From Sclerodactyla briareus (taxonomy: Eukaryota; Echinodermata; Holothuroidea; Dendrochirotida; Sclerodactylidae): a DNA stretch of 64,000 bases. The notes under the pieces are model-generated. The model ran no database searches. It was not told where the DNA came from and saw only the letters and a list, made by a program, of their open reading frames with translations. Shown piece by piece: positions 19,111 through 59,662 of the stretch. Location: positions 1-64,000 of the forward strand of contig JAODTK010003333.1 in the NCBI GenBank assembly GCA_026419785.1, written 5' to 3'. Positions within the stretch are counted from its first letter, which is position 1. Each line of letters begins with the position of its first letter. Made by a program: the position numbers and the translations under genes.

Positions 19111-21152
19111 GTGACAGATTTCAAGCAACGAGGACACAATTTATTGGCAGAGGGGGATTGCTTCTTACACACTACTCCATGGCCATGACCTTTCTCTTCA
19201 CATATTTGAAGGGAGGGGTCCACTGCTCCCCTGAATCCTCCCACCCATTGCCGCACTTCCCCTGCTGAGCACAGGGCATAACACTCTTGCATCACAACTG
19301 ATATACAGCTGAATTCATGTTGCTCAAAGGCTTATGGAAATTGAGGGCTAGTAAGTGATCCTTGCTCTCCAAGTGACTTGTCCCTAAGCAGGGAGGGTCA
19401 TCATCCCCAGAGTGATACCAGAGCCTGGCAGATGATGATGTTTGGTCAGCCCAGAGAGAAAGTAGGTCATAGCAAAATTAGACTGGAGTAACCAGTCAAA
19501 ACATGAGTCTAGTAACATCTGTGGGCATTGTTGTCATGAATTCATTCTCTGTTAAGAGAGACAAGAATCTGTGAATGTTCTGATCATCGTAGTTTTCAAG
19601 ATTACCAGGGGACAGTTTAAACTTGTGAAGGGCAGGGTCAAAGGTTATTAACGGGCAAAAAGACCATTATGTGTATATTTCCAAAGGTATCTCCTACAAA
19701 GTACATCAGATGTTCTTGAAACTGTTCGTAATTTTCTCTTCCAGCTGTTTGCAACATCATATAATGTCATTAAATTGAAACAGTAACATGAAGCAAAACA
19801 GTCAGTCTTCGATGGATGTTGACCAAGCTTGGACCATTGTTCCCATCGACCTTTTGGGCCATGTGAGGGTCTAGGTCATAGGTCATAAAGGGGGAAAAAT
19901 ACGGCGCTTGTGTGAAAATGCCTCTTTCTCAATTGGCCATTCTTTGATGGGACGTTGACAAAACGAAGTAAACAATGTTTTAGACTGATATGACATATGT
20001 GGCATATTGAAGATCAATGTCAAAAGTCAGTACAGGGGCACATAGGCCATTGTGTGAAACTGCCTTCTTGCCTCATGATCTTGAAACATTAACACATTCA
20101 TCTTGTACAGTTGTGGGTTGAGCTACGGCACAATTGGTGCTCCAGTTTAACAATGTGGTTCGAGGCTTCAATAAACAATATATATATTGTATATGACAAG
20201 GACGATGTGTAGATTATTGTCACTGTTAGACATCTCCGATATTCACTACATTCCGATAAATCTGTTAAGACACATCTGTCCAATTCCATTCCTTCATGCT
20301 TGTGTGACACACCTCTTTGAGACCTGACATTTCATGTTCTGATTCATTCTTCGCTTATGTTGTAGACAAGAGCCTCTAAATGAATGAAACTCAACAATAC
20401 TAAGTAAGTCTGTAAATAAGTAGTATTAAGTTGATGCGATATGTCATCGGTGGACACAGTGGCAACAATAACTGAGGAAGCCCCAAGAAAACCGTTTCCT
20501 GGGTATGGAAAAAACTGAGCTTCGGGAGGCGGATGGGTAGCGTTTGTCCTGATAATGCCACGGGTACCAGCGAAAGGAGAATCACCCAACAGCAGAGGTC
20601 AGCCTGTTATACAAGAGAGAGCACACAGTCCGGTCAGAACATGGTCTCTACAGCACAATATACATTACATCCATTAGAGAGGAAGGAGGAAAGAGGAAAG
20701 ATTGGTGTGTTCTAATATATCTATATATATATATATATAGATGTATAATTATATATATTATAAAAAGTAAAAAAATTTTATTAAATAATTTAAGCAGCAT
20801 AATTAGCTAACTAAAACGTATCAGTTACGCGCCATGTTGCGTGCACTATGGTGCAGGGGATATTTATCGACGCATGATTATGACCGGGAAGAAGGATTTG
20901 TTTGATATTATTTTAACATGTTGTAACGGTTGTAAGAAGTTTCATTTCATTGTCAGTTGATAAAGATCCAGGTAGGAGGCGACGGAAAATTTCTGTTGAT
21001 TGAAAATAAAATTGTTGCAATTATAAACCGCCACACATTCTTGCTCATCTATATGATAATTCCAACACACGGCAGGGTAATAATATAATATATATATAGA
21101 TATATATTATATATATATATATATAATCAGGAGAGAAATCCAATCTCTTCAA
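19111..21152. other. Upstream flank of the PWWP gene, dispersed repeats and AT microsatellites
   Basis: At 19620-20070 lie diverged units with TCAAAGGT and TGGACCATTGTTCCC, relatives of sequence at 56.1-56.5 and 57.9-58.1 kb. AT/TA microsatellites at 20711-20760 and 21080-21127 flank a 320-bp AT-rich block. A promoter or first non-coding exon for the gene at 21.15 kb is expected nearby, but none could be pinned down. Confidence 0.5.
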
Positions 21153-21293
21153 ATGAGCAACAATTTGGTGTTTGTTTTCATAGAGTACAAACGTTCCGGA
21201 ATCTCCGCAACTGTGATTGGCAAAACCGTATATGGACCGGGTGACAAGGTGTTTGCCAAAATGAAAAGTTGGTCCATTTCTGGCCTGATAGGG
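21153..21293 (+). CDS. HDGF/LEDGF-like gene, first PWWP exon
   Basis: This exon encodes the start of a PWWP domain, a chromatin-reader fold that binds methylated H3K36 nucleosomes. YGPGDKVFAKMK matches the family's opening GDL(V/I)FAKMK. Just after it, dropping one A from the AAAATGAAAAG run gives KMKLVHFWPDR, matching KMKGYPHWPAR with its WP pair intact. As written, the frame instead reads SWSISGLIG, so the exon has a one-base lesion. The donor (GTACGT at 21294) is good. The start is uncertain: an ATG lies at 21153, but an acceptor-like TTTTCATAG near 21182 would make this an internal exon. The family call rests on this and the next two exons together. Confidence 0.8.
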
Positions 21294-22860
21294 GTACGTT
21301 GCTCACTCTCTCCTTTTCTTTCCCCCTCAGAGGTTCAGTCTGAAAATCTCAAGAGGCATCTGGTTTTTGCATGGTTATACAACGAGGGATATCTTATTTA
21401 GATACATGTATAAAAAGCTCTGTGTTACTCACAATAACTTGAGGGACGCTTATAAGATGTATCAAGGTAGTAGTAGAGCACCTGTCACATTGAAAATCTG
21501 TTTCATACGTATCGGCTGTGCTCAACAAAAGATTAATCCGAGTAGTAGTTACAACAATGATTAATCGATTAAGAATATCAAGTTATCGAGCTATTATAAA
21601 ATGAGAAATGGTTCCATGATTTTCCAGGGATACCCTCGCAGAATATAAAGTACAGGAAGCGTGTAATGTCGTATGAGGAACCTCAAATTACTTTCACAGG
21701 CATGCTTTAAGGCTGGACAGCGTTGCGATTAATCGCTAAACGATCGGACAGAAATAACTTTACCAAAAAATACGTGCGATTAATCAGTTCCCTCATTGCT
21801 CTTCTAATCTCATCCACCTTGACCCCATTTTCCACATTTTCTGCCAGTCATCTTGGTATTTTAAAATGTTAAAAATTCAAGTTATTCCTTTCTCAGTGTT
21901 TTTTCTGAAGTTGGTTTGAATCATTCAATCACGCGTGTGAATAATCGCGATTTATTTGCTAAATGATCGGAATTTTTTGCGAAGAAACGTTTACTGATTT
22001 TGCTACACGACACGCTCTAACCTGTTTTGCTTGAGAATGTACGGTAGTACACTTCCCTGTACGCAATGAACCAGAACTTATGAGGAAGACAACACTGTAC
22101 AGGGATCAAACGCAAATAGTAAGCTCTTCATAATCCTAGTGGAATGCAGCAAGTTAACTAAGATCTTTACAACTTGGTGGTGTTCAGAATCAGTACTTAC
22201 TTCACAGAGGGTGAGGTTAATTGCACAGACCCCTCTCACTCAATCTCCGGAGTGCTGGAGAACATTGTTGATAGTTACTCTGAGTTCGCCAAGCATTCGA
22301 ACCCGCCAGGAGAGATATGTGCAATGATGGCAATTGAGTATTGAACAACCTTTCCTGGGCCTGATGGCTTGCTCTTTCTGTCTATAGACTGTGGTGTACA
22401 TGGTGATGAAAATGGTAAAATGTATGTGTTCAATTTCTAGCATTCCTTGGGTGAGGAAGTGAACTATATGTTATCCACTGTTAGGATGCAAGAGACAAAA
22501 TTCTGCTACAGTAGCTAACACTGTACATTTTCCACCGTGAATTAGGCCTACTTGAGCGTGTAATTTACGACAAATCCGCTTCTAATTGTAACCTGCAAAT
22601 ATCTGATAGGGATACTCAAGTTTAATGTAGTATGTTTGTAGAAACACCAGTAACCACTGTTATGATGTATTAGGATAATATATTCTTTGGGTAACTACAT
22701 GTAGGGTGTCAAAGTTGAATAGGAAAATAAGCAATTCGGTAGGAAGTGATCCAGGCATGGGGGAGAGAACCCCAGCCTATCTTTCTAATTGTTATATTTG
22801 ATAATTGGCAAGGTGTTATTAGGTCACCACCTTTTTTTGATGGTTTGTTACATTTTGCAG
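21294..22860 (+). other. Intron 1 of the HDGF/LEDGF-like gene
   Basis: AT-rich, with GATTAATCG motifs at about 21560-21970. It holds no coding-like stretch. It ends in a good acceptor (TTTGTTACATTTTGCAG). Confidence 0.6.
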
Positions 22861-22935
22861 GTGGATGATGTTCCTGAGGGGGGGTTTAGCCTCCCCCCAA
22901 TAAGTACCCAATCTTCTTTATGGCACCCATGAAAC
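22861..22935 (+). CDS. HDGF/LEDGF-like gene, second PWWP exon
   Basis: Clean acceptor (TTTTGCAG) and donor (GTAAGT). The frame opens VDDVPEG, then needs one extra C in the GCCTCCCCCC run to read PPPNKYPIFF, and one extra T in TTCTTTATGG to read YGTHET. These three blocks match, in order, the middle of the HDGF/LEDGF PWWP domain (V-D-E-V-P-D-G, then N-K-x-P-I-F-F, then F-G-T-H-E-T). Conserved splice sites and exact protein blocks, with both breaks at homopolymers, point to missing bases in the assembly rather than decay. That is inference. Confidence 0.85.
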
Positions 22936-23388
22936 GTAAGTTTACAATATCTGGGGTGTGGGGCCTGGGAAATTGTGAAGTTCGTCCTTGTATATAATAC
23001 TTCAGTAGAGTGTTGTGAATGGTTTTTATGATGGCACTACAGTGATACAAGTTAGGCTATTTTTTGGCTCTGGCACTCGAAGAAAAGGAAAACGAGAATT
23101 GCTGGGGTCTGTCCATGCCAGCTGGGGCAAAGTTTAACTTGACAGAAGCCTGTCCATGGTATAATTAAACGTGGCGCATAATGTCATTGTGTCAACGTCA
23201 TAGGGGCACACTGGACTGTCGATGTGGCATGTACAGTGTGCAGACATCTTTGGGAACTTCCCATGACGAAAACTAAAACATCCTACCATCACAAAATTCA
23301 TGATTCCCCCCCCCCCCTCCCCCGTACTTCTCCACATGAACCATATCTGGAGGATTGGGGGAATTGGATGCTTCTCAAAGGATGGTGA
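22936..23388 (+). other. Intron 2 of the HDGF/LEDGF-like gene, 5' part
   Basis: Non-coding as far as I can see. It contains a C-rich tract at 23307-23325. A second open frame (MNHIWRIGGIGCF...) starts at about 23337 and overlaps the one listed next in another register. Confidence 0.4.
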
Positions 23389-23697
23389 CCGTTTGAAAAT
23401 AGGCAGTATGATAGAGCTTGGGGAGCTATTGTCTACACCCCAAGCTGTTTTGTGGTGAACATGCTCACTTATGAAACCAAGGAGAGGCCTATCCTGTTGC
23501 TGGACTTCGAGCAAACAGATTTTAAGAGTGCTCTACCCAAGTTGACAGTCAACAGGATCGGGTACCACCTCAAGCCTGTACTAATTGAGGCTGCAATGCA
23601 GACTGTCACAGCTCGCAGTCAATGCAAAAGAGTCTTGTGGCGGCCTTGCGAGAAGCTCCAGTTAATTGCGCAATGGACCGTGAAACATTATTGAGCA
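23389..23697 (+). CDS. Unidentified coding-like open frame within intron 2
   Basis: Not recognised. The frame is open for about 102 codons from a stop just upstream to a TGA at 23695. It begins FENRQYDRAWGAIVYTPSCF, contains RPILLLDFEQTDFKSALPK and HLKPVLIEAAMQTVTA, and ends in QLIAQWTVKHY. The balanced composition and lack of low complexity look like real protein. It lies in the intron between PWWP exons 2 and 3, and its frame does not fit either. It could be a fossil of a mobile element or another gene's exon on the same strand. A second overlapping frame on the same strand weakens the case. Confidence 0.3.
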
Positions 23698-24075
23698 GTA
23701 ACTGTATTGTGTTGTGAGACACAATGGAGAAATTGCATTAGAAGAGGAACAGGGATACATTTCAAACTTGTCCGAACGCCCTCACCTTTCATACTCAGGT
23801 AGTCGGTATGTGATTACCTGTATTGCGTTACAAGAGGTCGATATTGTTTACCTTGGTGGTCAGGAATGATCTGGCTATGAATCACTGAGCCTTTGGCTTT
23901 CTGGTTATGCTTCATTTCAAGCCTTGCGAACCCAGTATGAAACTTGTCAGTCATGAAGGCCAGCCCTGAGGGGGGGGGGGGGGTTCTTCTCTGCCTAGTT
24001 ATGTACACGAATACCTCAGTTACTATTTGAAAAATGATCTTGTTTTGATTGGAATTCTGTCTGTTTCTGCCTTAG
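23698..24075 (+). other. Intron 2, 3' part, with a repeat terminus
   Basis: At about 23878-23903 is AATCACTGAGCCTTTGGCTT, a relative of the right terminus of the elements ending at 50.25 and 59.34 kb. A 13-G run lies at 23970-23982. Confidence 0.5.
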
Positions 24076-24203
24076 GCTTTCATGATGGCCAAGGATCTCT
24101 ACCCGTATGAGAAATTCAAACACAAGGACGCCAAGGAGCACAAGCGGTATGAGGCATTAATGGCTCTGGGAGATCGAGAACAACGCGACACAGTCATGGT
24201 GAT
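24076..24203 (+). CDS. HDGF/LEDGF-like gene, third PWWP exon
   Basis: Open and undamaged over its whole 128 nt. It encodes AFMMAKDLYPYEKFKHKDAK followed by EHKRYEALMALGDREQRDTV. In HDGF and LEDGF the PWWP domain ends AF-x-x-x-KD-(L/I)-(F/Y)-PY..., followed by a KR-x-x-F-x-E-x-L-x-x-(I/L) helix, so order and spacing fit well. It follows the GTHET end of the previous exon, as in the family. Acceptor TGCCTTAG and donor GTACGT are good. It ends in phase 2, which fits the next exon exactly. With the two preceding exons this completes one PWWP domain over about 3 kb of genome. Confidence 0.85.
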
Positions 24204-26698
24204 GTACGTTTGTAAAAGTCGCCACGGAAGTTTGTCGTATAGCATAGGTCGCCCCGAACAATCAGAATACCCATGTTAGCTGCTGCAACTAGTGTATTGG
24301 GCCTCGAAAAGGAAGCTAGAAGGAAAATAGGAAGATATGAAGGAAAATCACACTAATAGCAACAGAACAGTTATCTTTGTTCAAGGTTAACATGTGGTAT
24401 GTTATAACAGGTGCCATTGAGCTGACGTGACTTTATAGCTGATCAATGATTATGAATGCAGAGTTCATGAATTTCATGAGTTGAAAAATTGAAACTGTCA
24501 TTCATTGCTACCAAGTCCGACAGAACAAGTGTCAACTTTAAACAAGATAATATGAGGAAAACATTCCTCTTAATAACACGAAGCAACATTAAGAGGGACT
24601 TTGGGCATTATTCAATGATGATCTAACCTACTGCTTCAGGAGTTGTGTTGCTATTAATAAATCTAGTCTATCATCTATCTATCTACCTAGACTCTGTCTG
24701 TATGTCCGTCTGTTCATCAGTCAATCCATGGACCATCGTCCATCCATCCATGGACCATTCATCTATCCAATGGGCTGTGGATCTTGGTTTATTGCTCCTG
24801 GGGCAGTGCTTCTTAACCTTGTTAAATTTTCAATTGAAGGTTTTTTGAGGGTCAGTAGAGTCACACAGAATCATGCAAAAAGGTATGCTAGCTCTGGGGG
24901 GCTATTGATTTGACAGCAATGGACGTGTGAACTGTGTTTAATGACTATTGGGAGAAATCTCATAAAGGTAAAAAGGAGTTATTGAAGGGGCATAGTAGGC
25001 CATTGTGTGGAAAAAATTCAGATGTGACTTCTCTACAGAAGTATTAGTTGGATAGCTCAGTCGGTAGAGCTAAGACTTGTGGTCGAATGGTCCGAGATGG
25101 AAACCGAGCCAATTAGCGTTTCCAGTGCGTCCTTGGGCAAGGTGCTGTATCTTCGTAGCCCGGTCCAATCCAGCGTTATTGGGAACCCCTGAGAGGTTAC
25201 TTGTAATCACAAGTGCCGCTGAGTTACGGCAGCCGTGTGATGAAATGTCCCGGGGACATGTTGTGGCCGGCAACCATTGACGGTTGCAGAAGTGTATAGC
25301 ATTTGAGATGTTGCATTATGGTGCGGGACGAAGTTTAGTACCATTGACCAGAGGGTGATGGCCTTCAGTGCTTCAAGACCGTAACATGGTATATGAGAAC
25401 CGGTACATTATTTATTAATATATTATTCGATTTTTTGGAATCTTGTCCATAATATTTATTGGGCAGGGCTTTAGCTCTCGAGTCATTAGGGGTTTGTTAG
25501 CTGGTCAAAAAACAGTGAAATCAAGCCAAAAATGTGTTTGTTTGCGGCCCAGGTAGGCTATAGGCTGTTTTCGATGGAATCTGATGGAACTTGGACACAA
25601 AGTAAATTGATATTTGGGGTGTTCTTGTCACTGAAGGTCAATTGTTCTCTAAGGGAGGGGTCTATAAGGGGCACAATGAGGGTCATGGTGAGGAGGTAGG
25701 AAGGAAAAAGACAAATCTTGTACTCCGACAAAGGAGTCTCAGATTTCCCTGAAACAACGTGGCCTAATGTTGCTTGCAAAGGGTCCCATGATACAAACTA
25801 GTTCTTAAAGCTTAAATTAAGGCAATGATCAAAGAGGTTAGAGCATGAAAAGGACCATCTAACCCATGATCTTTTTTCGAGAATTGAATGAAATTGCCTT
25901 AAGATTCCTTCAGCTCAATCGGGTCAGCAGTAAATAACCGCCTCGGATTCTCTCCACATGGTGAAATTCCCTCAAAAGCTTTTATTCCCTGTATGGTATT
26001 CTATTGTTCAGTAGAAGTTACATTAAAGTGAAGCAAATAACTGCTGGGACTAGTGAGTGTGGGAACATTTTGTTACAGTAAGTGAGGGCAGAGTAACTAA
26101 CCTATCCAATGCCTATCTGCCTCATCAATTCTATCACCGTCAAACAATAGGCACTTTATGATGCACCACCTATTACCCCAGGGTGACAGGTTGAGTCATC
26201 GTTTGTGGGCCAAATCATTTCACTTGTAATTATGACTTTGATGACAATTTCCTTGAATCTCCTCAAAGTAAGTTCAGCCAATTCATCATAGGGAGTAATG
26301 CACTTGCCATGCTTGCTTTCCGAAATACAGTATTCAGATTATGGAGGGGTTAATAGAAAAGGTGGCTTACTTGTGAGAGAGGAGTTAAGGGAGAGTTAAG
26401 TTAGGTTGTTTTATTCTGACCCTGGTGGAATGACAGTCCCCAGAATGACTGTATTGGGAATGGCTGAATTACAGTGAGTATTTACTACATAGAAGAACCT
26501 GATGAAACTCTTCTAAGAAATTGGTACATCTCTCGCTTTGAGATAATTTCTGAGATGGATCTCACCAAGGAACTCTGATGTATTTTTGTTGTTGTTTTCG
26601 AGAGTGTCCTGAATGAGATTCTCAATCACTTGTTTTGACTACAAGACACTACATACACATGTGTCGATTGTGGCAATAACATCCCTATCTGTTTACAG
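24204..26698 (+). other. Intron 3 of the HDGF/LEDGF-like gene
   Basis: Contains (ATCT)n/(CCAT)n simple sequence at about 24665-24775 and a tRNA-type SINE at 25045-25330. The rest shows no exon. It ends in the acceptor CTGTTTACAG. Confidence 0.6.
25045..25330 (+). mobile_element. tRNA-derived SINE
   Basis: TAGCTCAGTCGGTAGAG (25053-25069) is a near-perfect Pol III A box. GGTCGAATGG about 12 nt further on resembles a B box. A region with TCCTTGGGCAAGGTGCT follows, a core motif shared by several animal SINE families. The tail is diverged. Open frames on both strands over it are incidental. SINE identity is well supported, the exact family is not. Confidence 0.75.
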
Positions 26699-33960: not shown

Positions 33961-34243
33961 TTCGGATTTCACGTCTGGGTCTAAGAAGCCCAAGAAGCCG
34001 AAAAGCGAGACGTCGGAGGAGGAAGTTGACAACATGTGGAAGGGCCCAAGAAGAAGAAGCGTAAGACGAAGGAGAAGAAAAAGAGGAAAAAGAGCGAAGA
34101 AAGGCGGAGGGCACTTCTGATGAAGAAGTTGAGCCTAAGAAGAGAGGAAGGCCAAAGAAGACCCAGGACAGCTCTCAGGACGAGGAGGATGACGCCACGA
34201 AGAAACGTGGCGGCCTCGCAAGAAGGAAACTCAAGAGAGCAAG
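33961..34243 (+). CDS. HDGF/LEDGF-like gene, AT-hook exon 8
   Basis: The sequence reads GSKKPKKPKSETSEEEVDN, then in a shifted frame PKKKKRKTKEKKKRKK, then in a third register GTSDEEVEPKKRGRPKKTQ, followed by DSSQDEEDDATKKR. The KRGRPKK core is a canonical AT-hook, which binds the AT-rich minor groove. The donor is GTAAGG at 34244. LEDGF carries the same combination of lysine-rich nuclear-localisation sequence and AT-hooks after its PWWP domain. At least two one-base shifts are needed, near 34035 and 34090-34105. The acceptor is not certain. A 142-codon frame on the opposite strand is only the antisense of this Lys/Glu-rich stretch. Confidence 0.7.
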
Positions 34244-35890: not shown

Positions 35891-35990
35891 CCAATGAACC
35901 GCACATTGAATTCTTACCTAGTATACTACCTGATAATCCACAGCCCAAAGACTAATGTTCGAAAACGATCAGCATCTACACGAGCGCCAG

Positions 35991-36136
35991 AAGGGTAAAG
36001 CTAGAAGTGGAAATCTACGGAGGAGGAGGAGGAGTCTGCTGAGGAGCAGGACTCCTCAGACCAGGAGGAAGAGGAGGAGAGCAGCAGTGAAGAAGTGTGG
36101 TACCCAGAAGAAGACGACCTCCAGGCAAGGCCAAAG
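35991..36136 (+). CDS. HDGF/LEDGF-like gene, acidic/AT-hook-like exon 9
   Basis: Preceded by GCGCCAG and ending at the donor GTAAGG (36137). The central frame reads SAEEQDSSDQEEEEESSSEE, and a shifted frame then reads PRRRRPPGKAK. Acidic Ser/Glu stretches followed by an Arg/Pro-rich, AT-hook-like patch recur in HDGF-family linkers. Two one-base shifts are needed, one in the GGAGGAGG run and one near GTGTGG. The acceptor lacks a strong pyrimidine tract. A degraded copy lies at 38064-38216. Confidence 0.55.
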
Positions 36137-37048
36137 GTAAGGGAGGAGATGGTACCGAAGAGAAGGGATACCTTCTAGCAAGGTAAGGGTGGTTGGTGGT
36201 GAATGATGGATACAAGGCCCCCAAGAAGGCTGGAGGTAAGGGCTAGTAGGGATGGTGATGAGATCACGGTACCAAGGATAAGGGAGGCAGGCTAATAGTG
36301 AGATGGTGGTGTGGTGATAAAAGGGGTACTGGCTCTGAAGAAGGTTGCGTCTCTGGGAAGGCTTATGCTAATGAACATGAGAGGTTGAAGTACTACTGGT
36401 GCGTACTAGAAAAAAAATTGGTTGAGGCTACCAGTGAGGGAAGAAATAGTGTTGTGGTGGTGAGGTACCGTTACAAGAAAGGTGGCTCCGCTTATGGTAT
36501 TGTTGTTAGGGTACTGGCAACAAATATAGAAGAATAGCCCTAGATTCACCTATGTAAGGGACAGGGTGATATTGAGGGTGAGGTACTGGTACCAAAGGGG
36601 GGGGGGGAAAAAAGGGGGTCCTAGGGGTAAGGCATGGAGAGGTAGTAGTACTGCCTAGTTACTGGTATCAATAAGAAGAAAAAATGGACAATGATTAGTA
36701 CATCGGAATTATAGAACCATTATACAAAGTAGAACACATTTGCTAATTGTGCAAAAAGTCTATGATGTGGAGGTGGTGTCTGTGGGAACTCCTGTGGAAA
36801 AATACCTCTAGAAAACCCTCAACTGTGAATATTATGCCAACAGTTATGTATGAAGAAAAAATAACATATTTTGGGAAACATCACTATTCTACTCTTTTCT
36901 CCACATTAGTGCAATGTGGGACATTACAGAAATTACGCATCGGGCATTGGGTTGCTGAAAAACATTGATCAATTGAAGGAGACTGCAAAGTCCCAAGTGA
37001 TGTTAGCAGTTTAAGTGGATCGTCTCAGTCTTGGTTTCATTTTGCCAG
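36137..37048 (+). other. Intron inside duplication A
   Basis: Gly/Val-codon-rich, G-rich sequence with repeated GGTAAGGG and GGTACC motifs at 36130-36640. No exon was accepted. It ends in a good acceptor (GGTTTCATTTTGCCAG). Confidence 0.45.
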
Positions 37049-37167
37049 CTCAAGAGAAGAAGCAACGGAAAACTCCTGCGAAGAAGACGCTGCAAGGAAG
37101 ACACCAGCAAGGAAAAACACCCTCCCAAGAAAAAAGGCAGAGAAAAGGCACCTGTATCAGATTCAAG
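37049..37167 (+). CDS. HDGF/LEDGF-like gene, Lys/Thr/Pro-rich exon 10
   Basis: Bounded by ATTTTGCCAG and GTAAGA. With one or two bases corrected it reads QEKKQRKTPAKKT, PARKTPARK and KKGREKAPVSDS. This is a lysine-rich basic stretch with a KTPA repeat ending in an acidic Ser-rich turn, as in HDGFL2/LEDGF linkers. The duplicated copy at 39150-39271 preserves PARKTTAGKTPPKKKGRE, which supports the corrected frame. Histone-H1-like tails have similar composition, so composition alone would not identify the gene. Context does. Confidence 0.6.
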
Positions 37168-38040
37168 GTAAGAGGAATAATGATATGCCCATGGTCTTGC
37201 GTTTATACCTCTCTGTAGCTGATGGTTAACCAACTTACAACAGGACCATATTTTGGTGCTATTTTTAGGGAAAAATTGCCCCCCCCCCCAGCTCTTTTCG
37301 AGTTCTTATTGAGAATGTCCGGGTGACTACAGGATATAATATTGTTATTGAATAAATATGGTTGAATCCAGCCTTCAAAGGACAGGGAGTGACTCTGGAA
37401 TTAGTTGGAATCTGCCTACTGTCGTACATATGTGGGCAACAGGCTGTAGACTTCACAACAAGTTTTGACCATGTGGTTTAAAGCTGGCAGGGGCCACCAC
37501 TCTATGGGGTAGGGCGATTATTAGTCTGAGTACTGCTCAGACTGCTGTGCTAGAGAGGTGGTTAAGGAAGAGACTAAAGAGCAATATTCACAAATTGGTG
37601 GTCATTAATTCCTTTCGTTTCAGTGGTTTTAGGTTCGGTTTGGCACAGACTACGTTGAACCAGGTTCCAGCTGTATTGTAGGGAATTTTGAAAGTTTGAT
37701 GATTCAGCATTGCTTCAAAACATTTGATTTATTCGACAAACAAAAATTAGGTGAAACTGAAAAAGGATCAAAATGCCCTCTGTTTGATTTGGTTTCAGGC
37801 CAGCATGCAATCCTATTGCAGGAATCAAGTGATTATAATATTGATGGAAATTATTGGCCTTACAGAGGCTTCTCCCCAATGGGACCCCATCCAACAGCTG
37901 AAATTCCACACAATTATGGTCACCCCCAAAATATGCTGGCTTCTTAGAAATTATAAGTATTATAGTTCAATAATAGTTACAAGGACAGCCTCTCCTAAAC
38001 CCATCACCATTATCATAAGTACCTCCCTCACATGAATCAT
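37168..38040 (+). other. Intron inside duplication A, 3' part
   Basis: Contains a 10-C run at 37271-37280. Open frames at 37696-37947 are not supported because they break in the second copy. Confidence 0.5.
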
Positions 38041-38063
38041 CACATTTCTACATCGAGCGCCAG

Positions 38064-38216
38064 AAGGGTAAGCCTAGAAGTTTGAACTACGGCAGGAGGA
38101 GGATGGAGTCTGGCTGAGGAGCAGGACTCCTCAGACCAGGAGGAAGAGGAGAGAGCCAGAGAGATGAAGTGTTGTAACGCAAGAAGACAGGACGAACCTC
38201 CAGGCAGAGGCCAAAG
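38064..38216 (+). pseudogene. Second copy of exon 9, frame-broken
   Basis: Corresponds to 35991-36136: GCGCCAGAAGGGTAA, GAGGAGCAGGACTCCTCAGA and CCTCCAGGCA are retained. Extra and missing bases destroy every frame, and the donor has lost one G (AAAGTAAGG). It is either sequencing noise over a real exon or a decayed duplicate. Confidence 0.55.
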
Positions 38217-39149
38217 TAAGGGTCGAGATGGTACCTAGAGGAAGGGGATACCTTCTAGCCAGGTAATGCGTGGTTGGTGGTGGTGATGATGTTGATACAA
38301 TGCCCCCCAAGCAGGCTGGAGGTAAGGGCTAGTAGGGATGGTGATGAGATCCCGGTTACCCCAAGGATAACGGGAGGCAGGCTAATAGTGAGATGGTGGT
38401 GTGGTGATAACAGGGTACTTGGCTCGAAGAAGGTTTGGTCTCTGGGAAGGCTTAGCTACTGACATGAGAGGTTGAAGTCTTACTGTTGGGTACTAGAAAA
38501 AAATCTGGTTGAGGCTACCAGTGAGGGAAGAACTAGTGGTTGTGGTGGTGAGGTAAGTGTAACCGGTTACACAAGAAAGGTGGTCCGCTATGGTATAGTG
38601 TTGTTAGGGTACTGGCAACCAAATATGAAGAATACCCCCTATATTCACCATGTAAGGGACAGGGTGATATTGAGGGTGAGGTACTGGTACCAAAAGAAGG
38701 GTGGTCCTCGGGGTAGGCTATTGGAGTAGTTAGGATACTGCCCTAGTTACTGGTATCCAATAAAGTTGAGAACAAAATGGCCAATTGATTTAGTCACATC
38801 TGAATTATACGAAACCATTTATCAAAGTAGAACACATTTGGCTAATTGTGCCAATATTCTATTATGTGGAGGTGTGTCATGTGGGTAACCCTGTGGAGAA
38901 ACTACCTCTAAACCCTTCAACTGTGTAATATTATGCCAACGTATGTTATGAAGAAAAAAAAACATATTTTGGGAACATCACTATTTCTCCTCTTTTCCCT
39001 CTTTCTCCCCTCAGGTGCAATGTGGGCATTACAAAATTTACGCATCGTGCATTGGGTTGCGGAAAAACATTGATCAATGAAGGTAACTGCAAAGTCCCCT
39101 GATTGTTAGCGTTTCAAATCGTGTCTCGTCTCAGATCTTTGTTTCATTT

Positions 39150-39271
39150 TGCCCATCTCAAGAGAAGAAGCACCGGACAACCCTGCGAAGAAGACGCCTG
39201 CAAGGAAGACAACAGCAGGTAAAACACCTCCAAAGAAAAAGGGCAGAGAAATCACCTGTATCAGATTCAAG
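39150..39271 (+). pseudogene. Second copy of exon 10, partly broken
   Basis: Corresponds to 37049-37167. The frame KKTPARKTTAGKTPPKKKGR is intact here, and in this stretch it is cleaner than the first copy. The acceptor AG is lost (GCCCATCTCAAG in place of GCCAGCTCAAG). The donor GTAAAG at 39272 is weakened. Confidence 0.5.
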
Positions 39272-40158
39272 GTAAAGGAATAGGATATTCCGCCATGGTC
39301 TTGCGTTTATCACCCTCTCTTAGAGCTGATGGTTAACCCAAACTTTCACACAGGACCCCATATTTTGGGTGCTTTTTTAGGGAAATTGCCCCCCCCCCCC
39401 CAGCTCATTTCAGAGTTCTCTTCCTTCTTGAGAATGTCCGGTGCTCCAGGATAATATTGGTATTGACTAATATTGGGTTTGATACCAGCCTTCAAAGGAA
39501 CAGAGTGACTCCTGGAATTAGTGGACATTGGCCACTGTCATTCATAGCTAGCTGGGCAACAGAGCTTGTAGACTTCACAACAAGTTTTGACCATGTTGTT
39601 TTTAATACACTGGCAGGGGGCCACATCCTATTGTGTAAGGGAGATTTTAGCTGAGTACTGCTCAGACTTGCTGTGCTTTCGAGAGGTGTTGTAAGAGAAG
39701 GACGAAAAGAGCAATCTTACAACATTGGTGGTCATAAGTTCCTTTCGTTTCAGTGTTTTTTAGGTGTCGGTTTTGGCACAGAGCTTCCGTTGAACCATGT
39801 TTCCAAGCTGTATTTAGCGGAATTTTTGAAAGGTTGACCTGTTGTCAGCATTGTTCAAAATTTGAATTTCTTCGACAAACAATCATTTGAAACTGAAAAT
39901 ATGAATGGCAAACTGCCCTCTGTTTGATTTTGGTTTCAGGCCAGCCATGCCCTCCATGCAGGAAATGCAGTTATTTATAAATATTGATGGAAATATCCTG
40001 GGTCCTTACAGTGGCTTTCTGTCTTTCCCTCAGGACCCCATCCACCAGCGAAATTCCACACAATCTGTCCACCCAAAGATGCGGATTCCTTCGAATTATA
40101 AGTATTATAGTTCAATAATAGTTTGACAAGACATCTATCTCCTTAACCATCACACCAT

Positions 40159-40239: not shown

Positions 40240-41035
40240 CAGTGTCTCGAAGGACTCTGATAGTGAGTCCTCAACTTGGAAGCAGAACAGACGAGCTCAA
40301 CGCAGAAGCTTGCTGAGGAAGCCACGAGAACTTGAGGAGGAACGGATCCGAGAGATGCGGGCGACGTGAGAAGCTTTAAAGGAAGAGAAGAGAAAATAAG
40401 GAAGAACAGGCTGAGACAAAAAGGAAGAACGAAAAAAATTAGAGTCAATCTCATCATCTTTGGTAGAGGGCAGATTAAGGTTGGTGGTGGACAAGGTGGA
40501 GCAAATCAACAGAAACGTCGGTAAAGGTCGAAGTGGACAAAGAACATAAAAGAAAGAAGCGCAAAGGACCAAGCCACGTACAAAGGAAGTATCAAAGAGA
40601 ATGAAAACGGGTAGGAATGGAAAAATAAGGTTTGATTAGAAGGATATAAGATTAAAATAAACACAAGGAAAGGCTGCAAAGGCGGAGGAGCCTCGAAAAA
40701 AAAATACTGAAGAAGAACAGGATGAGAAGAAAAAAAAAACCGTGAGTTTGTAGAAGAGCAGCGAACGAAGCAAGAGACAATAGAGAACCCCCAGGTGGTG
40801 GACCGGAAGCTAGGAGATGAGAGAACAACAGCTGAGGAGGCCGGAATAAGTGAAAGCAAGAGCGGGCTAATGAAAGATCAGGACTGAGGCGGCGAAGTAC
40901 AAATACAAGAGGACACATGAATAAAAGTAAAGGAGTATGGAAGGACACATGAAGAAACAGAAATGTGGGCAATGGGTGGAGGGGGGTGCCCCTTTGATTG
41001 TTAAGAAAGTAGAAACGCGAATATAATATAGAAAC
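40240..41035 (+). CDS. HDGF/LEDGF-like gene, long Lys/Glu/Arg-rich exon 11
   Basis: A strong acceptor (TTTCTTCCTTTCAG) opens SVSKDSDSESSTWKQNRRAQ. Later registers give KLAEEATRE, LEEERIREMRA, EALKEEK and EEQAETKRKNEKN. For about 790 nt the plus strand is strikingly purine-rich and reads Lys/Glu/Arg/Gln in whichever frame is open, but the open frame changes every 40-150 nt. HDGFL2 and LEDGF have such charged helical segments before the C-terminal domain. The repeated shifts suggest uncorrected long-read errors over a real exon. The 3' end and donor are not determined. Opposite-strand frames of 73-131 codons here are antisense shadows. Confidence 0.55.
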
Positions 41036-41410: not shown

Positions 41411-42058
41411 GTTTTGCTGTGTACCAGTTCATATTGGGCCTGAACTGCGCTGTTAGTGGTTAGGATACAACACATCAATGTGTGAGTGTTATGTGTTTGT
41501 TCAAGCTATCTTTTGACTACTACCAGTTCAATTGGCCTAGCCACTTTTGGTGGGTAGGTTAACAACACATCTGTTGAGTGTATGTTTTTAACAACCCATC
41601 CTCTGTATCAACTTTGACATCGCACAGGAATTGAAAATATCATGGGCAACAGTTTCCAACCCCCTACCCAAATTGGGCCTGAGTTAGTGGAATATTGGAT
41701 AGATTGTTTATCACTGTTTTTAAGGGGCATCCAGGGGTCTGCTGAATCATTTTGAGATAATTAACTACAGATTTGTACTACAGAAACGAATCAAAGCATT
41801 ATTTTTAAATGTTGGAACACCATATCTTCTTTTATGTTGATAGACTTTGAATACATAGAAGCATCTTGGCGTATGAACATGAAGAAGCTTGTTTTGTGAT
41901 GTTCCATATAGTGGAGCTCGTGTCATAGTTTGCTCTAAGATAATGTATCTCATGGTATGGCTTAAAGTCACTAAACTTACCGTCTCTCAAGAGTATTGAT
42001 GAATTGAAGTAGTCAATCCGTTTTGGCCTGGTAGTCATGTGAGCGAGTTTGGAATTCC

Positions 42059-42295
42059 ATGAGTCAATCTTACAGCCTAGGTAATTTCCTAACTGCCCAT
42101 AATAAGATGCGTTTTAGCTTACTATCGGCAATAGTTACTGAATGCTTTCTGAAGTACTCACATCTCGATACTGACCGTGTCAAATTCCTCACTGCTAGAG
42201 GACACACCACACTGTTCCATCTTGCCCTGATCAACCACGTGTTTTCCATCATCCGGGAGCTTGGTGGACCCTATTGGGTGAGGTCAAGTGCATAG
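42059..42295 (+). other. Unidentified open frame in duplication B
   Basis: Open for 78 codons, including FLTARGHTTLFHLALINHVF and SIIRELGG, which loosely resembles one ankyrin repeat. It is followed by GTGAGG. In the second copy the frame is broken. An open frame on the other strand overlaps it. Not called as a gene. Confidence 0.25.
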
Positions 42296-42411
42296 GTTTG
42301 GGTTGAAAGTATTACGTTACTTACTTGAGTAAAGTACGCCAATACCATTGCTTTTCCTTGACTGATGCGCCTTCTCATGGTGATTATACCCTCTTTCACA
42401 GCGCTGGTCAG

Positions 42412-42515
42412 ATTCTGAAGTGGATTACCGAATACGAAGGATTCGAGAAAAAAAACAAACGCCCATGTTTGATCTAAACTGTAGTAGATGCAGACTCCTG
42501 GAACCATTGATTGAG
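42412..42515 (+). CDS. Possible first exon of an IBD-like domain
   Basis: Between GGTCAG and GTGATT, 34 codons are open: SEVDYRIRRIREKKQTPMFD followed by LNCSRCRLLEPLIE. The integrase-binding domain of LEDGF/HDGFL2 is a C-terminal helical bundle that binds partner proteins such as JPO2 and MLL/menin. It starts with an R-L-x-x-I helix and later has R-C-...-L-(D/E)-E-L. This peptide shows R-I-x-R-I and then R-C-x-L-LE-x-L, in order and at about the right spacing, in the right place in the gene. The second half of the domain (TLKKIRRFK-like) was not found. Treat as a hypothesis. Confidence 0.4.
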
Positions 42516-42539
42516 GTGATTTGTATGATTTCTTATTTT

Positions 42540-43700
42540 TATTTCACAAGTGCTCAAGGCAAGAATAATGATATGCCAGGTAAGACTGTCCTCCCTTTTT
42601 CTTTCAGGGGGTTGCCAAGCATTAACTATATATACCAAGCATATATATATTTACTCTTAGTTTTTTTGATTGTTTTTTAAGCTCACCACCCCTGCATATG
42701 GCTGGGTCAGCTATTTTTTGATGTGTGTTGTCCCGTCATCTGTTAGAGTCTACCCACTTTGATTCACATTGCTGCTCCTCCTGCAGTGTTGGTCGAATCA
42801 GATGAAACTTGGTCACATGCTCACTGAGTGAAGGGGCATCTGGGGGTTTTCATGATACGTTCATCTAGATTAAATTTCGGGGTTCGGCCTTTTCTGAAAC
42901 TGCAAAATGTTTCTTCTACCGTTCAATCGGATTTTCATGGAAACTTTGTCATTTCTCAGCGCAATTGTACTATGGGGTGTTCCGGATTTGAGGGCAAAAG
43001 GTCACTAGGGGCATTCTGGCCGAAAGGTTCTTTTTGGGGTCAAACATCAAACGCCCCTTCTCCACAGACATGGAGCTATCATATTACCCAGAGAGGCAGT
43101 AGCAGGCAAGTGTAGAAACCGTGAAGGGCTTATATAAGAGGCTTCATACTCCATGTTAGAGACAAAACCATTGATTGAATCATTCAATGATTGGCCAAGC
43201 CACTAATTACACTTCTTCTCAACATACCGACAAATATCTAAAACAAATCGTTCATTTCATTTCAAACATGAGTTCAGAATAAGCATCTTTACAACTCTTG
43301 CTGACTTGTTTACATTTTTTTCTTCTTCGTTCTGTATTGGGAAGAATAGTAGTGATGAATATTATCCGCAGGTGAGTTCATCCAGAAATTCTACTTTAAG
43401 TTCCATTCCGCCGTTTCATTTCAATGTCCTCCGTCCCAGCCCATGGAGCTAACCATACTTGTAGTAATCTATCGTAATTGACTGATATAAAAACTACACT
43501 TGAAAAATAAATCTGTTGATCACGATAGTATTAAGGTGTCAAAATTTGTCATTTCGTTGAATAGGTTATGTTTGCGAAACCAACTATATTTGTTACGTCC
43601 GGGTAACTTTTTTTGGAAATTTGTGAACTGATCCCCATTTCTCCAAAATATTAAGGATTGAGTGCTGTAATTTTTCTTGAAATTATTCTTGTAAGATGAG
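42540..43700 (+). repeat. Dispersed ~150-bp repeats inside duplication B
   Basis: Diverged units carry GAAACTTGGTCAC, GGGGCATCTGGGG, AACTGCAAAATGTTT and GGGGTGTTC..GAGGGCAAA. Related units lie at 45.9-46.2 and 60.8-61.2 kb. No exon was accepted, although a 27-nt stretch before a strong GTGAGT at 43372 might be one. Confidence 0.5.
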
Positions 43701-43749
43701 GTTCGAACGATGGCATCCTTGATTCCTTGACGAAGTCAGAGGTCTTTGC

Positions 43750-44520
43750 AGTCACGTCGGTGTGTGGTGTGTGTGTGTTGTGTGGTGTGTGTGTGTGTGG
43801 TGCGTTGGTGAATCCGGTAAACGGGGACACACACGGGATCTTTTCCACGTAACTGGGGTTACAAACGCGAACCGTGGATATCCCCGTTTGTTTGTCACCG
43901 TTTCCATAGGAAACGCCCCACAAAAACCGGAATTAGGGGATATCCCCGGTTCCCCTATGTTTCCCTTAAAACTGACTGCTTAAAATGATACTTGTAGTGG
44001 GTAGGGGTACCCCTATGTAGGTTTTTCCCTGATGTCCCCATTTCCCATAGGTGAAAGATCAATTTCCCGTTTGTGTGTCCCCGTTAGGGGGGCCCCCTAC
44101 ACAAGTATGTGTGTTTGTGTGTGTGTGGTGTGTGTGGTGCATTTGTGGCTCCAGTAAAACGGGGACACACACGGGATCCATTCCACGTAACGGGGGATAC
44201 GGCCGCGAACCGGGGATATCCCTGTTTGTTTGTCCCCGTTCCTCCATAGGAAAACGCCCCACAAAAAACGGAATGGGGGGATATCCACAAAAAACGGAAT
44301 GGGGATATCCCCGGTTCCTGTGTTTTCATTAAAAAAACTGCTTAAAAAATGATACTTGTAGTGTAGGGTAACCCCCTATGTAGGTTTTGCACTGATGTCC
44401 CCATTTTCCCCCTAGGTGAAAGATCAATGTCCCGTTTGTGCGTCCCCGTTTGGCGGCCCTCCACGGTACTGTGTGCGTGTGTGTGTGTGGTGGTGTGTGT
44501 GTTTGACGCCCGCTTGTAAA
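43750..44520 (+). repeat. TG-rich composite tandem repeat, ~350-bp units
   Basis: Two units start at about 43760 and 44105, and a third begins near 44460. Each has a (TG)n stretch, GGGGACACACACGGGAT, a palindromic GGGGATATCCCCG and TGATACTTGTAGTG. A duplicate of this array lies at 46875-47655. Confidence 0.85.
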
Positions 44521-45550
44521 CTGGATGGGCAACAACAATGAAGCTCAACTTGGTCATGACTGTGTACGCAGTTCATTGGCCCTGAAACTGCTGTTAGTGG
44601 GGTAGGTCAACACACTCAATGTGGAGTGTTATGTTTGTTCAAGCCTTTTTTGACTATATCCAGTTCATTGGCCTGACCACTTGTGGTGGGTAGGTTACAA
44701 CAAATCAATGTATAGTGTTATGTTGTTTTACCCATCCTTGTGGTATCAACTTGACATCCATAATTGAAATCATCTGGGCACAGTTTCCAACCCCTACCAC
44801 AAATGGGCCGGATTTAGTGGAATATTGATAGATTGGTTATCCCTTTTTTTAGGGGGCCATCCCGGGGGTCAAGCTTGATCATTTTGAAGAATAAATGTAA
44901 CTACAAGATTGTACGACTAGACGCATAAGCATTATTTTATTAAATGTGGAACACCATATATTCTGGTAATTTGATGACTTGAATCCAAGAAGCATCTTTG
45001 CGATGAAAAATGAATACTGTTTTTGTGAAGGTTCCATATAGTGGAGGCTAGTGTCATAGTTCTCGAGATTATTTATCTCATGGTATGGCTAAAGTAACTA
45101 AACTTACCGTCTCTCAAGAGTATTGATTGGGAATTGAGTAGGGGCAATCAAGTTTGCCTGTATTACATGTGAGGCAGTTGGATCATGAGTCAATCACAGC
45201 CTATGTTATTCCTAACTGACCATTAAGATTCTGTTTTCGCTACGGATGGCAATAGTATCATCTAACTAAGTGGTCCGGTGCGCTGCATTGCTTTCTGAAG
45301 TACTTACCGATACTGACGTTCACATCCTCACCCTAGAGGACCACACCACACTGTTCCAATCTTGCTGATCAAACCAACGTGTTATTCCATCCGGGGCGTG
45401 GTGGACCTATTGGGTGAGGTCAAGTGCAAGGTTATGTTGAAAGTATTTACTTATTACCTTGGAGTAAAGTACCTAATCCAATTCTTCCTTCCTGTTGACA
45501 TTATGCTGCTTCCTTTGCATGGTTGATTATACCGGCCTTCCGCCTGTCAG

Positions 45551-45654
45551 ATTCTGAAGTGGATTACAGAATCCAGGAAGGATTCGAGAAAAAAAACGCC
45601 CAATGTTATTGAATCATATGTAGTAGATGCCGAATCCTGGAAACCATTGTGGAG
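45551..45654 (+). pseudogene. Second copy of the IBD-like exon, frame-broken
   Basis: Same length (104 nt) and same boundaries (CTGTCAG, GTTATA) as 42412-42515. It begins SEVDYRI as in the first copy, then compensating and non-compensating indels give a stop after about 20 codons. Confidence 0.5.
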
Positions 45655-46874
45655 GTTATATGTATATTTCTTATGTTTTTCACATATTGCTCAAGGCAAG
45701 AATAATGCCAGGTAAGACTGTCTTCCTTTTCTTGCATCAGGTGGTGCCAAGCATATTTACTCTTGAAGTTTTTTTGATTGAATTTTTAGGCTCACCCCCG
45801 CCATATGGGCTGGGTCCGCTATTTTGATCGTGTGTGTTCTGTCTATTGTTTAGTCTGTCCCAAATTGATTCAAATTGCGCTCCTCCTGGTCATTGTGCTG
45901 GTCAAGATCATGATGGAAACTTGGTCACAATGATTACTGAATGAAGGGGCATCTGGGGTGTTCAGGACGGTGAGGTCAAAGGTCATCAGCAGTAAATTTC
46001 GGCCATTTGTCTGAAAACTGCAAAATGTTTTCTCTACAGTTCAAATCGATTTCATTAAACTTTGGTCAGTTTTATCAGGCGACCAATTGTACATAATGGG
46101 GTGTTCAGGAATTGAGGGCAAAGTCATCTAGGGGTCTTCTGCCGCAAGGGTCATTTTTTGTTGGGGTCCAACCAGTCAAAAAACGCCCCTTCTCCCAGAC
46201 AATGGAGCTATTATATTCTAGAGAGGCAGTAGCAGGCAAGTGTAGAAACCGTGAAGGGCTTATATAAGAGGCTTCTATACTCCAATGTAAAGACATTGAT
46301 TGAATCATTCAATGATTGGCCCAGCCACTAATTACACTCTTCTCAAAATTACGAAAAATATATAAACCAATAGTTTCAATTTCACTGAGTTGCAGCTAAT
46401 ATCTTACAACTCTTGCTGACTGTTTCACATTTTTTCTCTTCGTTCTGTAGTGTAAGAATAGTGAATTATATTATCGCAGGTGAGTCATCCGAATTCACTT
46501 AAAGTTCCATTCAGCTGTTATTTCATGTCCTCCTGTCCGGACCATGGAGGCTAAACATACTGTAGTAATCTATCTTATTGCCTGATATAAAAACTACAAT
46601 GAAAATAAATTGTTGATACTGAGTAGTATTAGGCAAATTTTTCATTTCGTTGATAGGTTATGTGGCGAACAACTACTAATATTTGTTTACTTCCGGGTAA
46701 CATTTTTTGGAAATTTGTGAACTGATCACCATTTCTTTCTCCAAAAGATGAAGGATTGAGGTGCTTTGTAATTTTCGGTTACAAAATTATTCTGGTGTAG
46801 ATGAGGTATCGAACGATGGCCATTCATGGTGATCTCCTTGACTAGTCAGAGGAATCTATGGCAGGAAAGGTCCA

Positions 46875-47655
46875 CGTCGTGTGTGGGTGTGTTTGTGTGT
46901 GTTGTGGGTGTGGAAAAGTGTTGTGTGTGTTTGTGGCTCCAGTAAAACGGGGACACACACGGGAGCCTTTTCACGTAACTGGGGTACACAAACAAGACAA
47001 CCGCGAACCGGGGATATCCCCGTTTGGTTGTCCCCGTTTCCATAGGAAAAAACCCCCACAAAAAAACGGAATGCGGGGATATCCCGTTTCGGTATTTTTC
47101 CCTTAAAACTGCTTAAAAAATGATACTTGTAGTGGTTGGGGTACCCCCGCTATGTCGGTTTTTTGCACTGTGTCCCCAGTTCCTTCCCATAGGTGGAAAG
47201 ATCAATGTCCCTTTTGTGTGCCCCGTGTAGGAGAGGCCCCCTACACAAGTATGTGTGTTTGTGTGTGTGTGTGTGGTGTTGCTTTGTGGATACAGAAAAA
47301 CGGGGACACACACGGGATCCATTCCACGTACTGGTGATACGCCGCGCGAAACCTGGGATATCCCAGTTTGTTTGTCCCCGTTTCCATTGGAAAACGCCCC
47401 ACAAAAAACGGAATGGGGGATATCCACAAAAAAACGGAATGGGGGATATCCCCGGTTCCTGTGGTTTCCCCTTAAATGCTTAAAAAATATACTTGTAGGT
47501 GGTAGGGGTACCCAATTTAGGTTTTGCACTGATCCCCATTTCCATGGGTGAGAGATCAATGTCCCGTTTGTTCGTCGTAAAAAAACCGCCCGTTTTGGCG
47601 CCCTAACACAGTTATGTAGTGCGTGTGTGGTGGGGTTTGTGTGTGTGTGTGTGAC
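46875..47655 (+). repeat. TG-rich composite tandem repeat, second array
   Basis: Counterpart of 43750-44520, with units starting near 46880, 47250 and 47620 and the same GGGGACACACACGGGA and GATATCCC motifs. A 204-codon minus-strand open frame over it is a by-product of the repeat. Confidence 0.85.
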
Positions 47656-47690
47656 GCCCCGCTGTAAATCCACTATAACTCGACCCCAGC

Positions 47691-52499: not shown

Positions 52500-55400
52500 G
52501 AGCTTAGGTTGCAAAACTGACTTGCAGCTTAGCAAATCACAGCAGAATAGCTCCCATTTTGGTTCAGACGATGATATATAAAATGGAACTTTCCACTATC
52601 GTCCATGGTGCTCTGCATGTTGAGCGTTATATTGGAGGCAAGCCCTGGACATGCTGTACTGAAGTTCCTATACAGAACAGAAATCAGTGTGGAACGTATT
52701 TGTAAGCCGCGACAGCGCCCTTACTCATAGTAGTGTTACTAGTGACATGTGATTGTGCTACATGATTCGCATTTCGTCAGAAGATTAGAATATGTTCCGT
52801 TAACAGTCTCCTCTAATTGAGGCTAATTCGAGCTTCACATCAATAAGCTCTAGTTCACTCCATGATGTTATAGTTATACGCCTAGATGGTGTTTCTTCAT
52901 GCCAGCCGCAATCGATTCGTCATTTCGAATTAACTATGATGTTTCTGTGCTTCCGTAATAGATTGTAATGACTTTCCCCGCGTAAAAACAAACTTTTTTT
53001 TGTTTTTTCGAAACGAGTAACACTCACTGAACGTATGTTGCAGAATTTGCACTACTATGAATACCATCTTTAACATGAGCAACAAAGGTATTTTCGGAGG
53101 TCTATGGTCGAAGAAATTCGCAGATAGGGAGTAAACAAACAAACTAATGGTTTCAACATGTTACAACGCAATAGGCACCATACCAAACAACGCTCTAATG
53201 GTCTTCTCCAGTTAATATCTAGCTCCATGATTGGAGGTGAATGAACAATCCAGGTGCCGTGCCCGACAGTAGGAGGGAAAAAACAAAACAACAACATCTG
53301 TGGGCTCCTCTGAAGGTTGGAAAACCACAACTTTGTTGACCACAGAAACAAGTTTGACTTCCACATACGAGAAACTAAATAATGATGAAGCAGCTCCTAT
53401 GATTTATGAAATGTTGAAACACACTTTCTTCGGATTTCCAGAAACAAATATGAAATGTTGATAATCATGTGTGCTGCATCAATGTAATTCAGCATTACAA
53501 AATAAGCAAAGCTTGTCGTCACGGTCTGCTTAACCCCAACAGGATAATCAACTCGCTATAACAGTCACCAGCCATGGCCCCCTTTATATTTTGCGCCTGT
53601 ACCGTCAACCCTTTTCTCTGTTTAACCTCTACGTTGTGTCAAAGCATGCACGTTCTCGGAAGTTCACACTCACACGGATTGGACAATTCATCGCTCCGGG
53701 CAGACACAACGACGTGAAAAACATTACGTTAGAATATTCGGTAGCTAACCAGACTAACATTTTCTATTCAGCAATAAAATGTGAAAATTCTTGAAAGGGA
53801 AAGATTGAACTGTGATCACTCCATCATACCTTGCATTGGAGATGCATGAATAATCCGACCAAAGGGAAGTGCCAATGGCCTCACTCCCCCCCCCCCCCCC
53901 CCCTCCTCCCTCCCATTGGCAATAAGTACAATACAATTTATGGGCCCATAGACACGTGGCTGCTGCAATATTTGCTAAATAACACTGCAAAACACTGAAC
54001 TGGCAGGAATTCTTTTTTTTTGGTTAAAAATGTATTGATCACTGCCACTTCGGTCATAGGGGGTTCTGTTCCAAACCCCCCCACCCCCTTCTTAGGGTAA
54101 TAGCTCCCTCCCTGCATTTACAAGAGAATGAGATGTTACCTAATGTTTTTTTTTTGCGGATCCATCACGGTGCTGTAGGGTGATGGACGAAATCGCCAAT
54201 GCCTTCAGCTTATCCTGATCCTGTTCTCTGACGGATCATGCTGAATTGTTCAGAGCTATCAAGAAGGTCATTGTAGAAGCCCTGGTTACACTTGCTCATT
54301 TATGCATGCATTTTAATGTAAATCATGCAGACTTACAAAAAACAAAACGATCACAGGAGCATCTTGAAGGCTGATAGTCATGTAAACTATCTTACTTGAC
54401 TTTCAGTCTTTCCATTCATTACATTATGGCAGTAATCCCAAACGCCGAATTCCCCGCCGATCCAAATGAGCCGATATGACACAAGCAGCTGTGACCTTGG
54501 ACCCTCACAGGGAGTACTGCTGGAACCCCTGTAATACAAAGTCAATGTAGAACATGTAACTTGAAAAACCAGTAACAAACAAACTACAAATGGGAGCCAA
54601 GAGAAACCTACAAAATCGTTGACAAAATCTTTTTCATTTCCAAGTGAATACCTATTCTCGTCTTCCTGTTATCATAGGCGCACGGAAACGAACCATTACT
54701 GTTTGATGAAGTCTGTGAGCGGTCTTTGCATATTCCCACAGATGCAACATAGATTCCTCAAACGCCTCAGATAAATTTGAAAAATAGCCCGAAGAGGCAA
54801 CATGCTAGCCACCTCCAAAATTTGTGGTTCTGATATGTCCTCTCTTAACCACTTGAAGGAAATCTGTTGACTGGTCTTCCACTGAAGCTAGAATGTGATA
54901 ATGAAAATGAATCAAGAGCCACTTCAGATATGTTTGTACTATCAAGCAGTTCAGTGGTATATCTTCAGTCCCGACCCCTACAATTCAACATGTGATTTGG
55001 CTCCTGTGGAAAATGTGCGCATTAAATTCCAGATGGAGAATATGCCAAATTTAAGAAAATAATTACAAAGCATTTGAAATATTTCAGGCAATATGTTGAA
55101 TTCAAAACAAATTGGCGTCACTTCGGAATTGGTGACAAAGTCTCAAGATAGGCGTTGCGGAAAGACCTGCGTCATCTAGTATGATTCTGCAAGTGACTAG
55201 TAACTTCAGAAAATGCAGACTTCAACCAAATCATTCAAAATGCCTTTCAAAATGGAGCTTTCGTATTACATGCTCATTTCAAATGCTTTTATAGATAACT
55301 AAAATAAATTGAGAATCTCCTGACAAGGTTAAAAACCAGATATTAGTTCATGTAGCTCACTGGAACTCATCGTAATTGATTGAAATGACCTACTTCATAG

Positions 55401-59390: not shown

Positions 59391-59662
59391 TAAGTTTACA
59401 GTGTGATTCAGGACTTGATGCTGGCAGAGTGGAAGCAATGTTTCCCTTTCCTATTCCCAGATAAGGAGATACAAGAACAGCGACCAGGTGCGCTAAGAAG
59501 GGGAGTATTGTTACAACAAACTGAAGCTGGTGTTTGTCATGCAGAGAGACCCTGGAACAGCTAAAACCTATCAAGAGCAGAAGTCCGCCCCAATAAGGAA
59601 AATGTGAAAGTCCGAGCGCTGAGGAAAAGAAAGGAGGTCGGTAAAGATGAATTCATAGTTGT
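59391..59662 (+). CDS. Unidentified coding-like stretch
   Basis: After AAGTTTACAG one frame reads VIQDLMLAEWKQCFPFLFPD, KEIQEQRPGALRRGVLLQQT and EAGVCHAERPWNS. It then meets TAA at about 59561. The same frame continues NLSRAEVRPNKENVKVRALR, KRKEVGKDEFIVVVLKC to a stop. It is protein-like but not recognised, and the internal stop makes it a decayed element ORF or an exon with an error. Confidence 0.25.

Follow-up and report, generated by a model that had tools for sequence, protein, structure and literature searches.

Background

The PWWP domain of LEDGF recognises H3K36me2/3, and within the HDGF family only HRP-2 has both a PWWP domain and an integrase-binding domain (IBD) in common with LEDGF/p75, as stated in excerpts of a 2024 review (PMC11640333). 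W21A is named, in a passage of PMC3842248, among the mutations reported to disfavour chromatin binding. The IBD binds partners that carry FxGF motifs, and JASPer (CG7946, Drosophila) provides an invertebrate example of the PWWP-IBD architecture, a layout reported in 94 eukaryotic proteins, according to excerpts of PMC6877644. A protein of the HDGF clade is mentioned for Nematostella in part of another report (PMC3457860).

Here we describe a locus on a 64-kb stretch of DNA (the whole stretch analysed, hereafter the window) which very probably holds the 5' portion of an animal gene of several exons with a PWWP domain, a linker and an IBD, of LEDGF (PSIP1)/HDGFL2 type, whose reading frames are most likely broken by uncorrected sequencing errors. 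HDGFL2 (HRP-2) gives the best PDB match of the PWWP domain, and has the same order of PWWP domain, charged linker and IBD, with IRRYK in the IBD; the present locus is unlike it in that the frames are broken in this assembly, the beginning of the IBD could not be located in the window, and the IBD pieces sought in their HDGFL2 form do not rise above shuffled controls. PSIP1 (LEDGF/p75) also shares the order of PWWP domain, AT-hook-like motif or motifs and IBD, and the IBD pieces score highest with its sequence, but its PWWP match lies about 9 bits below that of HDGFL2. HDGF and HDGFL3 have a PWWP domain of the same family, but are described in excerpts of the 2024 review as being without an IBD (PMC11640333), unlike the present gene with its likely IBD.

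Results and Discussion

A PWWP domain in three plus-strand exons

The PWWP domain was located in three exons, which follow one another on the plus strand:

21237..21293, plus strand: PWWP exon 1 (PGDKVFAKMK..WPDR), with a frame change near 21274 and the donor GTACGT at 21294
22861..22935, plus strand: PWWP exon 2 (VDDVPEG..PPNKYPIFF.YGTHET), with frame changes near 22890 and 22919, the acceptor TTTTGCAG and the donor GTAAGT at 22936
24076..24203, plus strand: PWWP exon 3 (AFMMAKDLYPYEKFKHKDAKEHKR..LWEIENNAT), with frame changes near 24153, 24164 and 24189, the acceptor CCTTAG and the donor GTACGT at 24204

A frameshift-tolerant scan of both strands with HDGFL2 PWWP queries gave scores of 59, 99 and 95 for exons 1, 2 and 3, each the best in the 64-kb window, against maxima of 37, 37 and 41 for the same queries in first-order Markov shuffles (n=5, a single strand of each). 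A chance match had been considered for the PWWP domain, and is excluded by these scores. Identity to HDGFL2, with the frames fitted to that template, is 14/19 in exon 1, 18/25 in exon 2 and 23/40 in exon 3. We take the aromatic-cage residues of the LEDGF PWWP domain to be M15, W21 and F44; M, W and F are seen at these sites in the aligned letters, that at W21 lying past a frame change.

The peptide read through all three exons matches PF00855 with an E-value of 4.8e-9 (37.1 bits, cut-off 25.6), and matches HDGFL2 (E 4.6e-28), HDGFL3 (4.3e-27), PSIP1 (4.2e-25) and HDGF (1e-24) in the PDB; its frames were picked by eye, so that both the PF00855 and the PDB E-values are flattering, and the scan against shuffles judges the domain more fairly. 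At E ≤0.01 the PDB gave 19 distinct sequences, 17 of them from these four proteins, closeness being judged here among proteins with solved structures only. The remaining two are MITSUBA-1 (E 6.1e-4) and LD23804p, which we take to be JASPer and whose PWWP match is far weaker (E 9.2e-8). When the open frame of each PWWP exon was searched singly no Pfam family was matched; against the PDB, exon 1 alone gave no match and exon 3 alone gave HDGF as its best, at E 0.058.

These results bear out most of a sequence-only reading of this DNA, which had proposed a PWWP domain of HDGF, HDGFL2 or PSIP1 type split over three plus-strand exons. The motifs GDKVFAKMK, WPDR, VDDVPEG, NKYPIFF, YGTHET and KDLYPYEKFKHKDA are read from the plus strand in the order it gave, the exons are real by the scan, and the matches to PF00855 and to the PDB sequences support, at the level of sequence similarity, assignment of the gene to the HDGF family. 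What did not stand was the coding continuity. The PWWP domain has no single open frame across its exons, and the template alignment has to shift frame at two adjacent places in exon 1, twice in exon 2 and three times in exon 3. GDKVFAKMK and WPDR are in different frames, VDDVPEG, NKYPIFF and YGTHET are spread over different frames, and LWEIENNAT lies one frame on from AFMMAKDLYPYEKFKHKDAKEHKR; the proposed 'KR..E.L helix' (KRYEALMALG) proved to be partly an out-of-frame reading, with LWEIENN in the next frame.

The splice sites had likewise been called conserved, with a matching junction phase. All five named dinucleotides are canonical (GT at 21294, 22936 and 24204; AG ending at 22860 and 24075), but the phases do not match: at the end of exon 1 one extra base follows the WPDR codons, and exon 2 stops after the second base of a codon, whereas exons 2 and 3 each start on a codon, so that both PWWP junctions are off by one base. 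The last codon in the alignment of exon 2 to the HDGFL2 template includes base 22936. An ATG in frame with exon 1 is present at 21153; the 5' end and the start codon are uncertain, given the frame noise.

Candidate linker exons downstream of the PWWP domain

The following linker exon candidates, all chosen by eye, lie between the PWWP exons and the putative IBD:

33983..34243 (start approximate), plus strand: charged linker exon candidate (KKPKKPKSETSEEEVD), with SETSEEEVD, lysine-rich runs and the donor GTAAGG at 34244
36010..36136 (approximate), plus strand: acidic linker exon candidate (EEEEESAEEQDSSDQEEEEESSSEEV), with a noisier counterpart at about 38082-38216
37049..37167, plus strand: basic linker exon candidate, copy 1 (KTPAKKT..ARKTPA..PPKKKGREKAPVSDSR), within a 2.1-kb duplication
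39156..39271 (start approximate), plus strand: basic linker exon candidate, copy 2, with frame breaks elsewhere than in copy 1
40240..40450 (perhaps to about 41000), plus strand: linker exon candidate (SVSKDSDSESSTWKQ..TSSTQKLAEEA..ELEEERIREM), with the acceptor TTTCAG

In the first of these an AT-hook-like motif, KKRGRPKK, is open in one frame at 34137-34160, and a second one following it, KKRG/RPRKK, needs a frame change. A Pfam search of the open frame 33824-34120 gave only matches below the cut-off, to unrelated families, and the candidate at 40240 matched no Pfam family; to us, the latter candidate (40240..40450) presumably resembles the HDGFL2 linker.

Upstream of these candidates, positions 26690-26790 are lysine-rich or glutamate-rich depending on the frame, and may be an exon or a simple repeat; the open frame 26680-27120 gave only Pfam matches below the cut-off.

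Two putative pieces of the IBD

Further downstream, two pieces resembling the IBD were observed:

54159..54266 (exon bounds unsettled), plus strand: putative IBD piece (DPSRCCRVMDEIAN..DHAELFRAIKK), with frame changes near 54203, 54220 and 54225, and 12/34 residues identical to PSIP1
59461..59600, plus strand: putative IBD piece (IRRYKNSDQV..YNKLKLVFV), directly after a CAG, with four frame steps, and 19/50 residues identical to PSIP1

The two pieces are on the same strand and in order, and join at KK/IRRYK. Queried with the corresponding pieces of PSIP1 they score 47 and 47, against a shuffle maximum of 42 for each (n=20), and with laxer penalties 53 and 59, against maxima of 46 and 52 (n=9). 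A template-guided read-through of both pieces matches PF11467 with 29.9 bits (cut-off 26.3), covering profile positions 21-103 of 120, and nine shuffled windows handled alike gave a single PF11467 match of 14.3 bits. Read through by eye, the two pieces reach 25.9 bits on the same profile, below the cut-off; the second piece alone reaches 13.1 bits and the first piece alone gives no match.

Less favourable results came from other queries. With the whole PSIP1 IBD both places score 50, but one of five shuffles hit 59. In its HDGFL2 form the first piece was not found (the best score in the window was 32, elsewhere, with a shuffle maximum of 41); for the second, a score of 37 compares with a shuffle maximum of 39. 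The opening part of the IBD, sought in the window, was not found above shuffles.

These weaker results leave room for a different gene, of PWWP-only HDGF/HDGFL3 type, in which case the IBD-like pieces 30 kb downstream would belong to another gene or be due to chance. Such a gene would agree with the near-equal PWWP scores of HDGFL2 and HDGFL3 (100.6 and 97.5 bits), with the dependence of the IBD on read-through, and with the shuffle exceeding the whole-domain query and the HDGFL2 forms that do not exceed shuffles. We nevertheless consider it most unlikely, since the PF11467 match is above its cut-off and above all nine shuffled controls, the pieces lie on one strand in the right order with a join at KK/IRRYK, and charged, AT-hook-like linker sequence lies in between. 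The IBD is thus judged likely to be real from its sequence, and therefore points to a gene of LEDGF/HDGFL2 type, with weaker support than for the PWWP domain. We infer that all the pieces belong to one transcript and that the gene, which probably spans at least 38 kb, is intact in the organism.

Beyond the second IBD piece, an acidic open frame (EEDEEEERLGEEWWDKARSFYR) on the plus strand at 63511-63831, which matched no Pfam family, may supply a C-terminal exon to the present gene or belong to another one.

Error-like duplications and the broken frames

Two direct duplications lie between the first linker candidate and the IBD pieces:

35975..40153 (35975-38007 and 38047-40153), plus strand: 2.1-kb direct duplication, probably a single sequence that appears twice, with errors
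41417..47668 (41417-44520 and 44560-47668), plus strand: 3.1-kb direct duplication, with the same error-like divergence

The copies of the 2.1-kb duplication differ by 116 substitutions, of which 17 (15%) are transitions, against 186 indel events, and those of the 3.1-kb duplication by 205 substitutions, with 43 transitions (21%), against 296 indel events. When differences were simulated, in five runs for each setting, transitions made up 29-37% under random sequencing error and 50-63% under two evolutionary settings. The observed shares fall below even the error simulation, for which we have no explanation; such low shares speak against evolutionary divergence of the copies. Furthermore, in the basic linker exon, present in both 2.1-kb copies, the frame is lost, as judged by eye, at places that differ between the copies, and these breaks are consequently read as noise private to each copy. 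The duplicates imply about 50 indels per kb in each copy, nearer to raw reads; the PWWP exons, which lie outside the duplications and total about 250 bases, have seven frame steps, a number within this rate.

False 'homotype' duplications of about read length, produced by sequencing errors near contig boundaries and mistakable for exon duplications, have been described in long-read assemblies, as have frameshifts from short indels before polishing, according to excerpts of PMC8081667; the unpolished contigs mentioned there, at Q30-35, are far cleaner than the present stretch.

In an alternative reading, the locus is a decayed HDGF-family pseudogene that has kept its exons and introns but lost its frame through mutation; this reading draws on the frame steps, from which none of the three PWWP exons and neither IBD piece is free, and on the two PWWP junctions that are off by one base. 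Decay, however, does not sit well with the five canonical splice dinucleotides, nor with residues as well kept as those shared with HDGFL2 (14/19, 18/25 and 23/40, though with frames fitted to the template), nor with duplicates that are indel-rich and transition-poor and whose frame breaks are private to each copy, and we regard a pseudogene as very improbable. Uncorrected sequencing errors, and not gene decay, most likely account for the frame breaks, and the direct duplications are probably false. There is a slight chance that the 2.1- and 3.1-kb duplications are real and recent and that their differences alone are errors, in which case the lineage would have one or two of its linker exons in an additional copy, and the DNA-binding linker between the PWWP domain and the IBD would be lengthened.

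A run of 33 G residues is found at 40159-40191, right after the second 2.1-kb copy, and looks inserted, because the letters beyond it are those that follow the first copy. Other repeats were seen in the window. An inverted pair, 17571-19114 and 56500-58047 (1.5 kb, 71% identity), is probably a dispersed element; its copies differ by 198 substitutions, 76 of them transitions, and by 157 indel events, which comes closer to divergence mixed with error, and the pair is probably older. Tandem arrays, with units of about 44, 60 and 305 bases, occupy 61440-62472, 29314-30192 and 48599-49627.

Other searches of the window

Pfam searches of 10 of the 44 open reading frames of at least 100 amino acids gave, at E ≤1, a sole match of 12.7 bits (cut-off 27). 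The window yielded no tRNA in a tRNA search, and no Rfam family at the gathering score. Four pattern matches in viral contigs and 23 in bacterial or archaeal contigs included no relative, and provide no argument against an animal gene.

Conclusions

By homology with its described relatives, the PWWP domain of the encoded protein would dock on nucleosomes with methylated H3K36, the basic linker, with its AT-hook-like motif or motifs, would contribute DNA binding, with the IBD bringing partners with FxGF-type motifs to active chromatin. Two warnings follow for sequence of this kind: an indel load such as that found here can be enough for gene finders to miss a conserved chromatin gene, and the probable false duplications could be mistaken for exon duplications. 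For the biology, the locus would be an ordinary, conserved orthologue within a known family, read from noisy sequence.
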